The position numbers and the translations under genes are program-made. DNA of 64,000 bases, taken from Geobacillus subterraneus (lineage in GTDB: Bacteria > Bacillota > Bacilli > Bacillales > Anoxybacillaceae). Below are positions 57,263-59,952 of the stretch, piece by piece (within the stretch, counting starts at the first letter, position 1; every line of letters starts with the position of its first letter). The notes under the pieces are model-generated. The model made no database searches. It had not been told where the DNA came from and saw only the letters and a list, made by a program, of their open reading frames with translations. The stretch spans positions 496,001-560,000 of the forward strand of contig NZ_CP014342.1 in the NCBI RefSeq assembly GCF_001618685.1, given 5' to 3'.

Positions 57263-57344
57263 TTGTCTCACCTCATTGGCCGTATTGTACACCGTTATCG
57301 TTTGCCAATGGCGGCGGATTTATACATGGAGCGGCTCTCGTATA

Positions 57345-57353
57345 TGGTATAAT
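57345..57353 (+). promoter_or_regulatory. extended -10 promoter of the MNT-HEPN gene
   Basis: TGGTATAAT is a perfect extended -10 (TATAAT at 57348-57353). There is no good -35. Transcription should start near 57360, leaving a leader of only about 30 bases. Confidence 0.6.
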
Positions 57354-57389
57354 AGAGGAAAAACTAGACCGAAATGAGTGATGGCGACG

Positions 57390-58133
57390 ATGGACGAGAA
57401 ACCGCTCTATGGATTGGAACGAACGGTATTTCGCCAACTGCTCCATCTATTTTCCCGTTATGCTGATGTCATTGAAAAAGTCATTTTGTTCGGCTCAAGA
57501 GCACGAGGCGATTACAAGGAAGGATCGGATATCGATTTGGCGATCAAATTTCGAAAACCGGGAGGCCCGCTGTACCTTCTGCAATCGGACTTGGATGAAC
57601 TTCCGATCATTTATCCGATCGATGTTGTTGATTACAATCAAATTCACAACGAACAGCTAAAAATGAATATTGACCAAGAAGGAAAGACGATTTTTCAAAC
57701 GAACGAGCACGGGAAGGTGATGGTCACCATGAGCCGGCTGATGGATCGATATTACGATTTCGAACGGGCGCTCGCCAAACTCCGGCAAAGCGCCGCAAGA
57801 GACGCGCAAACGGATGACCTTGTTGTCGATGCGGCCATTCAACGGTTTGAATTCACGTACGAACTGGCGTGGAAATGGATGAAACTTTATTTGGAGTACC
57901 AAGGATACTCCGAAGTGACGAGCCCAAGAAAAACGATTCGCGAGGCGTTTCGAGAAGGGTTGATTGAAGACGGAGAGACATGGCTTCGCATGCTGGAAGA
58001 CCGCAACCGGACGTCCCATACGTATGATGAAGAAACGGCGATGGACATGTATGAACGCATTCGCACCGACTATATCCCGCTGTTTGACCGCTTGCTTGCC
58101 GAAATGAAACAACGGCTTGACTCGGAGACATGA
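57390..58133 (+). CDS. fused MNT nucleotidyltransferase and HEPN/HI0074-type protein
   Basis: A 247-residue single chain with two parts usually encoded by two genes. Residues 1-105 form a minimal nucleotidyltransferase with GSX10DXD (Gly35-Ser36, Asp47, Asp49) and a third Asp strand (IDVVDY). Residues 110-240 are a helical HEPN/HI0074 domain with RX4HXY (Arg205, His210, Tyr212: RNRTSHTY). In MntA-HepT systems the first AMPylates the Tyr of the second, a HEPN RNase-type toxin. The ATG at 57390 has GAGTG nine bases ahead; ATG 57381 and GTG 57378 are alternatives. It might instead be a nucleotidyltransferase with its substrate-binding domain, as in the HI0073/HI0074 pair. Confidence 0.82.
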   Translation: MDEKPLYGLERTVFRQLLHLFSRYADVIEKVILFGSRARGDYKEGSDIDLAIKFRKPGGPLYLLQSDLDELPIIYPIDVVDYNQIHNEQLKMNIDQEGKTIFQTNEHGKVMVTMSRLMDRYYDFERALAKLRQSAARDAQTDDLVVDAAIQRFEFTYELAWKWMKLYLEYQGYSEVTSPRKTIREAFREGLIEDGETWLRMLEDRNRTSHTYDEETAMDMYERIRTDYIPLFDRLLAEMKQRLDSET

Positions 58134-58788: not shown

Positions 58789-59540
58789 AGCGAATTGAAT
58801 CGCCAAAAAACGCGCGCGTGAAGCAATGGAAAAAGTTGCTGACGAAAAAAGGACGTGAGGAAACCGGGTGGTTTTTGCTCGAAGGGTTTCATCTCATCGA
58901 AGAGGCGCTAAAAAGCCAAGCGCCGCTTGTTGAGCTGATTGTGGATGAGCGGGCCGCGATTCCGCCCGGCTGGGACGTCAGCGATGTGCCGGTAGTGATC
59001 GTAACGGAAGCGGTGATGAAGGCGATCAGCAGCACGGAAACACCGCAAGGGATCATGGCTGTCTGCCGGCAAGCCGCGACCGAGCTTGGCGATGTGAACA
59101 CGGCGTTGCTCATTGATGCCGTGCAAGATCCCGGCAATCTCGGCACGATGATTCGCACGGCTGATGCGGCCGGCATCGATGCGGTCATTTTAGGGGAAGG
59201 ATGCGCCGATTTGTACAACCCGAAAGTCGTCCGTGCGACGCAAGGATCGCTGTTTCACCTTCCGGTTGTCAAAGGCGATCTGGCGCAGTGGATCGCGCGT
59301 TTCAAGGAGCAGGGCATTCCGGTGTACGGCACCGCCTTGGAGAACGCCGTCGATTACCGCACCGTTCCACAATCGTCTTCGTTCGCCTTGCTTGTCGGCA
59401 ATGAAGGAAGCGGCGTCCGACCCGACCTGCTGCGCCTAACGACAGAGAACGTGTACATCCCGATTTACGGCCGCGCCGAGTCGCTGAACGTCGCCGTTGC
59501 GGCCGGAATTTTGCTTTATTCCTTGCAGGCGGTGCGGTAA
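58785..59540 (+). CDS. ysgA: TrmH/SpoU-family rRNA methyltransferase YsgA
   Basis: Predicted 23S rRNA 2'-O-methyltransferase. The 251-residue protein has an N-terminal substrate-binding domain (1-95) and a SPOUT knot domain with motifs DPGNLGTMIRTADAAG (about 112-127), LLVGNEGSGV (about 204-213) and IPIYGRAESLNVAVAAGI (about 226-243). Start is GTG in a GTGA overlap with msrA. Precedes pheST as in B. subtilis. Confidence 0.93.
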   Translation: MKRIESPKNARVKQWKKLLTKKGREETGWFLLEGFHLIEEALKSQAPLVELIVDERAAIPPGWDVSDVPVVIVTEAVMKAISSTETPQGIMAVCRQAATELGDVNTALLIDAVQDPGNLGTMIRTADAAGIDAVILGEGCADLYNPKVVRATQGSLFHLPVVKGDLAQWIARFKEQGIPVYGTALENAVDYRTVPQSSSFALLVGNEGSGVRPDLLRLTTENVYIPIYGRAESLNVAVAAGILLYSLQAVR

Positions 59541-59580
59541 AATAGAATCGAAAATCAATAGGACAAGGGAGCGGAGACAG

Positions 59581-59952
59581 ATGGATGGCGAACTGCGGGC
59601 GTTATTGAACGCTGTGCTCGAGCGTCTTGATGTTCAAGGGGCCTACATCGAACAAATGCGCATGGATATCGTCAAGTTGCAAGGAAGCGTGAAACAACTC
59701 GAAGACAAAGTCGATCGCCTTCAAAGTGATGTGGACGCCATGAAAAAAGACATGGACGCCATGAAAAAAGACATGGATGCCATGAAAAAAGACATGGATG
59801 CCATGAAAAAGGACATGTTGGGGGTCAAAAAAGATGTCGCCGCGCTCAAGGAAGGGCAAGTGCGGCAGGAAAAAATTATGGAGCGCCTTGCCATCCGCTC
59901 GATTGAACAGGAAGCGGAAATCGATGAGCTGCGCAAAGAAATTTCGGCCTGA
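59581..59952 (+). CDS. small coiled-coil protein with heptad DNA repeat
   Basis: A 123-residue, entirely helical, charged protein. Its centre holds four successive DAMKKDM heptads (about residues 52-79), which are coded by a 21-base tandem DNA repeat. The rest continues as coiled coil (VDRLQSDV; VRQEKIMERLAI). No signal or membrane segment is present. GGGAGCGGAG precedes the ATG. I do not know its function. Repeat number may vary between strains. Confidence 0.78.
   Translation: MDGELRALLNAVLERLDVQGAYIEQMRMDIVKLQGSVKQLEDKVDRLQSDVDAMKKDMDAMKKDMDAMKKDMDAMKKDMLGVKKDVAALKEGQVRQEKIMERLAIRSIEQEAEIDELRKEISA
59734..59815 (+). repeat. 21-base tandem repeat inside the coiled-coil gene
   Basis: About four copies of a 21-base unit (GCCATGAAAAAAGACATGGA with one further base) run head to tail in frame, each coding one heptad. 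Copies differ only at the GAC/GAT and AAA/AAG third positions, indicating recent duplication. Confidence 0.9.

Follow-up and report, generated by a model that had tools for sequence, protein, structure and literature searches.

A fused MNT-HEPN gene of Geobacillus carries an internal start signal and may encode a one-gene toxin-antitoxin module

In the type VII toxin-antitoxin system MntA-HepT of Shewanella oneidensis, the motifs GSX10DXD and RX4HXY are carried by two genes, and AMPylation of a tyrosine silences an RNase (PMC7641770, in the part of that report available to us). The window analyzed here, a 64,000-nucleotide stretch of Geobacillus subterraneus DNA, holds both motifs in one gene. 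This raises the question of whether antidote and toxin could work from a single chain and, if so, how the toxin would ever be free to act. An earlier note on this DNA had proposed either a fused MntA-HepT toxin-antitoxin or a tame relative of HI0073/HI0074.

Architecture and family placement of the fused gene

The gene encodes one MNT-HEPN chain whose motifs begin, in ATG numbering, at residues 35 (GSX10DXD), 151 (QxFE) and 205 (RX4HXY), which confirms both the 247-residue single chain described in the earlier note and its spacing of 156 residues, counted from D49 to R205 (Table 1). An alignment of 28 fusions leaves a linker of about 6 residues between the MNT and HEPN halves, a length that would seem to allow no long helix such as MNT alpha-4. 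A chance motif match is ruled out by the profile E-values: the HEPN half matches PF08780 at 1.6e-47 (161 bits, cut-off 31.8), which places it in the HI0074 family, and the MNT half matches PF18765 (Polbeta) at 1.2e-17 (64.3 bits, cut-off 26.9) and PF01909 (NTP_transf_2) at 6.4e-10 (39.7 bits, cut-off 21). The HI0074-family model TIGR01987 also matches the HEPN half, at 2.7e-42 (143.7 bits against a cut-off of 55.8). An assembly artefact is likewise rejected as the source of the fusion, since 27 species of the clade, not counting L156, have the same architecture in intact form. The fusion gene is the one PF08780 match in the 3.47 Mb genome, and two further MNT-type (PF01909) matches lie elsewhere in it (G000:C1:2361348-2361527 and 3432687-3432914).

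Table 1. Features of the fused gene and its surroundings, in window coordinates
Feature	Position	Strand	Basis or remark
Fused MNT-HEPN gene	57390..58133	+	247 aa from ATG; ATG aligned across Geobacillus orthologues
Alternative start of the gene	GTG 57378	+	251 aa
Extended -10 TGnTATAAT, probably the resident sspI-msrA promoter	57345..57353	+	about 30-37 nt before ATG; transcription start inferred
MNT half, residues 1-108, predicted AMPylator nucleotidyltransferase	57390..57713	+	PF18765, PF01909 and L. pneumophila MNT matches
GSX10DXD (G35, S36, D47, D49)	57492..57536	+	sequence; invariant in 28/28 aligned fusions
Internal Shine-Dalgarno GGGAAGGTGAT	57711..57721	+	7 nt before ATG 57729; duplex energy -13.9
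Predicted second product, free HEPN, 134 aa from internal ATG (Met114)	57729..58133	+	37 codons before QRFEF
HEPN half, about residues 117-247	57738..58130	+	PF08780, 161 bits (match residues 120-241); TIGR01987, 143.7 bits
Q151 and E154 (IQRFEF)	57840..57851	+	counterparts, by alignment, of L. pneumophila toxin catalytic Q44/E47
RX4HXY (R205, H210, Y212; Y212 the predicted AMPylation site)	58002..58025	+	invariant in 28/28 fusions

Unlike the S. oneidensis pair, the MNT half scores just below the NCBIfam MntA equivalog model (57 bits, cut-off 60) and the HEPN half far below the HepT equivalog model (18.3 bits, cut-off 60); by profile the gene is therefore not MntA-HepT and is type-VII-like at best. 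The proposal of a fused MntA-HepT thus stands as to the single chain with both motifs and falls as to the family, and a toxin-antitoxin role is plausible. When a profile built from the 28 fusions (A1) is compared with solved structures, the HEPN toxin 8xdj of Legionella pneumophila (1.3e-31) and Thermus 1wty (1.6e-31) rank among the best matches for HEPN. The L. pneumophila MNT, 8xeh chain E, is matched at 1.2e-9 by phmmer and at 4.7e-14 with A1, and the structures 1no5 and 1jog, of HI0073/HI0074 from Haemophilus influenzae, are matched by A1 at 7.8e-7 and 3.3e-18, respectively. The HEPN of the Legionella pair belongs to this subfamily too (PF08780), and its MNT is comparably short and carries GSX10DXD; the pair consists of two proteins, whereas the present gene encodes one chain with a few-residue linker and a possible second product. 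According to the accessible portion of the Legionella report (PMC11586414), HEPN is a Mg-dependent RNase that works through Q44 and E47, MNT poly-AMPylates HEPN Y105 and so silences the RNase, and R98 and H103 are dispensable for RNase activity. In our alignment, Q44, E47, R98, H103 and Y105 of this toxin correspond to Q151, E154, R205, H210 and Y212. Hence, retention of RX4HXY alone is no proof of RNase function, and a relative of HI0074 need not be tame, since the Legionella relative is an RNase toxin. HI0073 and HI0074 share the profile family TIGR01987 with the fusion but are separate proteins, for which the literature covered yielded no functional test. The suggestion of a tame HI0073/HI0074 relative is thus borne out for the HI0074 family and mistaken in opposing that family to toxins, the closest solved HEPNs including 8xdj. 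Placement of both halves in non-toxic substrate-binding families, which had been named as an observation that would count against a toxin, is found in name only, in the Pfam label NTase_sub_bind of PF08780.

In the available part of Anantharaman et al. (2013, PMC3710099), PF08780/DUF86 HEPNs are described as "occasionally fused to MNT", and MNT-fused HEPNs as typically without catalytic RNase residues. The MNT-fused HEPN-M proteins treated there have the same domain architecture as the present gene; unlike them, this clade retains the catalytic residues. G35, S36, D47, D49, E154, R205, H210 and Y212 are invariant in every one of the 28 fusions of the alignment, which comprises 27 main-clade members and L156 and excludes broken alleles, down to 40% identity, and Q151 is retained in 27 of them. 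This retention rules out the candidate of a dead HEPN, and as far as residues can tell, the clade is an exception to the 2013 rule. Among six distinct fusions found later, the R, H and Y are kept in all six and GSX10DXD in five; the Ilyobacter fusion L213 is without the Gly of the latter. Ratios of dN/dS lie between 0.03 and 0.29 in both halves (6 of 8 compared pairs, those with finite dS in both) and between 0.055 and 0.29 in the Geobacillus comparisons (the window gene with L008, L005 and L078, and L008 with L009). Judged by these ratios, both halves are under purifying selection.

An internal start signal at the HEPN boundary

The earlier note had assumed that the fused chain is always neutralized, with release through proteolysis or loss of ATP. 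The sequence suggests another route, in which an internal start would yield HEPN without MNT. Pairing with the anti-Shine-Dalgarno was scored before each in-frame ATG, GTG and TTG of 19 fusions, several of which are close relatives. In the window gene the internal site is the strongest of 19 in-frame starts (synonymous-shuffle p=0.005), and across the set a start located 37-41 codons before QRFEF is the strongest in 15 of the 19 fusions, tied in one and second in three. In two-gene MNT-first relatives, the separate HEPN begins 35-39 codons before this same motif, and for 15 of the 19 pairs listed the beginning of HEPN and the end of MNT share 14-44 nt, with the same offset between the reading frames. 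Such an overlap means that a single indel would fuse the pair and leave the HEPN start inside. In some fusions Met114 has been lost, and there a nearby start codon bears the signal (GTG in L104, L085 and L134; ATG in L154 and L146).

Because Gly-Glu/Lys-Val codons can mimic a Shine-Dalgarno signal, synonymous codons were shuffled within each gene. The internal signal is stronger than the shuffles, with a Fisher combined p of 5.9e-6 over 15 genes, picked as lineages from the 19 scored fusions, and p=0.99 at the control site Met202. When 8-codon blocks are compared along the gene, the block at the HEPN start alone stands out (p=3.6e-6), the 23 others giving at least 0.58. It should be noted that the site was first spotted by eye in the window gene; hence, the test was rerun on 13 genes without the window gene and L008, which gave p=9.0e-5. 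Singly, 6 of the 15 genes fall below p=0.05, and L146 (0.86) and L154 (0.75) are not above their shuffles. The held-out fusions give p=0.029 (6 genes, with L207 and the identical L206 counted once; p=0.0044 if both are counted), a result carried by the phage-type fusions, and the combined p of the held-out main-clade fusions is 0.80 (L212 p=0.44; L213 without any internal start). The Rickettsiales fusion L222 also has no internal HEPN start, and together with L213 this indicates that a fusion can persist without one. Taking the codon patterns together, we consider the odds that free HEPN is made from the internal start to be about even.

The domain architecture is ordinary; what is new is the conserved, catalytically equipped one-gene form with a probable internal toxin start. 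In particular, the HEPN start codon and Shine-Dalgarno appear to have been retained at the position where HEPN begins in two-gene systems, and in a form stronger than synonymous shuffles. No description of this clade or of an internal start in an MNT-HEPN gene was found in the literature covered, seen in part and with subscription papers and supplements outside its scope, and the internal start is likewise absent from the available part of the 2013 account. A Geobacillus toxin-antitoxin screen (PMC6929052) reports, in its accessible portion, two two-gene MNT-HEPN types belonging to other COGs; the fused gene was not found in that portion. The nearest parallel in gene organization is provided by the Rpn gene-within-gene toxin-antitoxins, which also have an internal translation start and two opposing products per gene. 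As described in the part of the source we could consult (PMC10327210), the short internal Rpn product is an antitoxin that binds the toxin, whereas in the present gene it would be the toxin domain that starts internally, with the N-terminal enzyme acting as antitoxin.

Spread, loss and exchange of the locus

Two-gene homologues and other fusions, for which a search had been suggested, were both found across the order and phylum samples. PF08780 is matched at E<=1e-12 in 71 of the 299 order genomes and 91 of the 398 phylum genomes. Intact fused ORFs are present in 18 of the 41 genomes of the window's family, and further ones in six order-sample genomes (L102-L106, L108) and four phylum-sample genomes (L134, L146, L154, L156), which overturns a restriction of the fusion to Geobacillaceae; the remaining MNT/HEPN pairs are two genes, with either HEPN or MNT first. 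A second sample of 397 order genomes, searched with the fusion profile, added no fusions. In the HEPN tree, the window group forms one branch of 16 fusions and L111, in which MNT and HEPN lie in different frames (SH-aLRT 97); in a tree with additional rows, 18 fusions and L111 group together with support of 88/93, under the starred level. Outside the window branch lie L156, the Rickettsiales plasmid fusion L222 and the phage-type fusions L205, L206 and L214. The fused state changes four times on the best tree, and two of these changes are forced by well-supported branches. Both trees exclude HEPNs more than 90% identical and fragments shorter than 95 residues and include one third of the HEPN-first pairs, and three long-branch rows were removed from the larger one.

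In the window, the genes upstream of the fusion are ones that we take, from their sequence, to be thrS, infC, rplT, an M42 peptidase gene and sspI, and those downstream are presumably msrA, a trmH-type methylase gene, pheS and pheT. The fusion gene sits between sspI and msrA in Geobacillus, and the order thrS...sspI / msrA...pheT is maintained in other Geobacillus, in agreement with the description of this region as conserved core. The extended -10 element that the earlier note had assigned to the gene exists, although a promoter scan demanding a -35 did not list it, and its TATAAT is aligned in both MNT alleles and in most of the Anoxybacillus fusions shown. The empty-site relatives G021 and G024 have a single TATAAT in the same place between sspI and msrA; the element is therefore probably a resident promoter and not the fusion gene's own. 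Farther downstream in the window (59497-59952), a coiled-coil-like ORF contains a tandem MKKDMDA repeat, and its matches in relatives are fragmented.

Beyond this setting the flanks differ in L010, none of the tested Geobacillus neighbor genes lies beside the Anoxybacillus fusions, and the neighbors in other genera differ again. For example, the fusion adjoins an AbiH gene in L108 (PF14253, 7.8e-48) and an IS605-type transposase gene in L154, and in L213 it lies beside MobA/MobL on a plasmid typed as conjugative. The fusions L222, L214 and L205-L207 lie on plasmid or phage-type contigs. A DNA search of the whole locus in 14 Geobacillus genomes found 8 intact genes and 6 that are broken, scarred or empty: the MNT half of G025 is interrupted by a stop codon, internal deletions in G020 and G028 take most of MNT and part of HEPN, G022 has lost almost all of the gene, leaving a join with a shared stretch of about 9 bp, and the site is empty in G021 and G024. 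The differing neighbors, the adjoining AbiH gene, the plasmid and phage-type contigs and this patchy state in Geobacillus together suggest a toxin-antitoxin-like spread. A separate, shorter MNT-HEPN fusion, with open frames of 223-247 residues, is found in the viral contigs L205, L206 and L207 and in L214 (phage MT838095), and L206, L207 and L214 also carry a strong internal HEPN start.

The window gene is itself a mosaic. Compared with G. icigianus (L008), its dS is 1.41 for MNT and 0.062 for HEPN, whereas compared with G. zalihae (L005) the imbalance is reversed, with 0.014 for MNT and 0.288 for HEPN. The switch in divergence falls near the domain border, the swapped block includes the leader (window 57285-57710), and two MNT alleles that are 71-74% identical are paired with nearly the same HEPN. 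These contrasting values indicate that the MNT half and leader have been exchanged between Geobacillus species.

Four alleles combine a broken MNT half with a full-length HEPN. G009 (A. thermarum; L015/L091) has a 207-bp in-frame deletion of the MNT catalytic core, an open HEPN frame and an altered -10 region; the N-terminal part is replaced in G116, the halves are out of frame in G187, and in G025 the internal start is intact downstream of the MNT stop. The RX4HXY motif is altered, at residue 206 or 209, in 3 of these 4 alleles and in 1 of 27 intact ones (p=0.0035, in a comparison that was chosen post hoc and ignores relatedness). These changes fit a HEPN that needs disarming once MNT is lost, and decay or relaxed selection could do likewise. 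The stronger rule, that HEPN is always mutated after the loss of MNT, is not upheld as proof, the comparison being post hoc, relaxed selection being equally able to produce it and RX4HXY being unchanged in G025. That allele presents a real difficulty, as a potent free HEPN toxin would hardly be compatible with it, unless the substitution that it carries at residue 186 is of consequence. No allele with an intact MNT and a lost HEPN was found in the whole-locus search of the 14 Geobacillus genomes; outside Geobacillus such alleles would escape, because most loci were found via the HEPN profile.

Proposed mechanism and competing explanations

We propose that the gene descends from an overlapping pair, MNT followed by HEPN, whose reading frames were joined by a shift within the overlap. 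In the long product, the nucleotidyltransferase would AMPylate Tyr212 of HEPN subunits, either in its own chain or in adjacent chains where HEPN forms a dimer or tetramer. Within the fusion, the former HEPN gene's start codon and Shine-Dalgarno would persist and be used, and the resulting free HEPN would join the same oligomers as MNT-HEPN. An active MNT supplied with ATP would keep the HEPN RNase silent; were MNT blocked, or outrun by free HEPN, RNA would be cut and growth would stop. The benefit would probably be phage defense or the upkeep of mobile DNA. To this one-gene, type-VII-like toxin-antitoxin module, with MNT-HEPN, free HEPN and silencing by AMPylation at Tyr212, we assign a probability of about 0.5. 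The fusion and its family assignments are certain, and it is likely that the gene is an AMPylation-controlled RNase module of some kind. The most specific form of the proposal falls somewhat short of even odds, namely a nested system in which the internal start is kept by selection, the fusion-tied antitoxin silences both itself and free subunits, and the ratio of products from two ribosome sites tunes RNase release.

The families and motifs would be the same if the gene had a single product, in which MNT-HEPN AMPylates itself in cis and the internal Shine-Dalgarno either makes translation pause where the domains meet or is a relic. L213 and L222, lacking an internal start, speak for this explanation, and a pause site between domains would likewise favor Shine-Dalgarno-like codons. 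A pause, however, needs no start codon, and where Met114 has been lost it is again a start codon within a few codons that carries the signal. The peak is also confined to the block at the old HEPN start, and a relic would not survive synonymous saturation (dS from above 1.4 to saturated between genera) if the fusion was one old event. We regard a single product as rather unlikely, and only slightly more probable than domestication. Under the latter, HEPN would serve only to bind substrate, as the corresponding domain of kanamycin nucleotidyltransferase does, and the target would be another protein or a small molecule. This is what the names suggest (NTase_sub_bind in Pfam and "HI0074 family nucleotidyltransferase substrate-binding subunit" in RefSeq), and it agrees with the fixed core-region site within Geobacillus and with alleles that keep an open HEPN frame without the MNT core. 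Yet HEPN typically loses its RNase residues in such cases, going by the accessible part of PMC3710099, whereas R205, H210, Y212 and E154 are kept throughout the aligned fusions. Patchy loss, with 8 of 14 Geobacillus genes intact, and plasmid carriage would be odd for a housekeeping enzyme, and the internal HEPN start would be left unexplained.

The six broken, scarred or absent Geobacillus genes could also mean that the gene is what remains of a module, now decaying and without function in that genus. Such decay is improbable, given the purifying selection on both halves in the Geobacillus comparisons, the invariant active-site residues and the intact copy in the window itself. If the proposed one-gene module is real, antidote and toxin would share one chain while the toxin is also made free, with two ribosome sites setting stoichiometry and release. 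The question raised by the 2013 account, whether MNT-fused HEPNs are dead substrate-binding domains, would then become directly testable; the proteins of this thermophile should be stable enough for structures, and natural alleles without a working MNT half exist.

Related domains were also encountered in other combinations. Type I methylase (HsdM) occurs with a PF08780 HEPN fused at its C terminus, and type I HsdS (specificity) or HsdR subunits occur with an N-terminal MNT (loci L036:2477-4390, L057:3983-5425, L059:4420-5919 and L041:2940-6137), an arrangement in which HEPN-MNT toxin parts appear to be spread over restriction-modification subunits. In a Prevotella MAG (L017:2323-4033), the two domains form a tandem HEPN-MNT-HEPN-MNT array.
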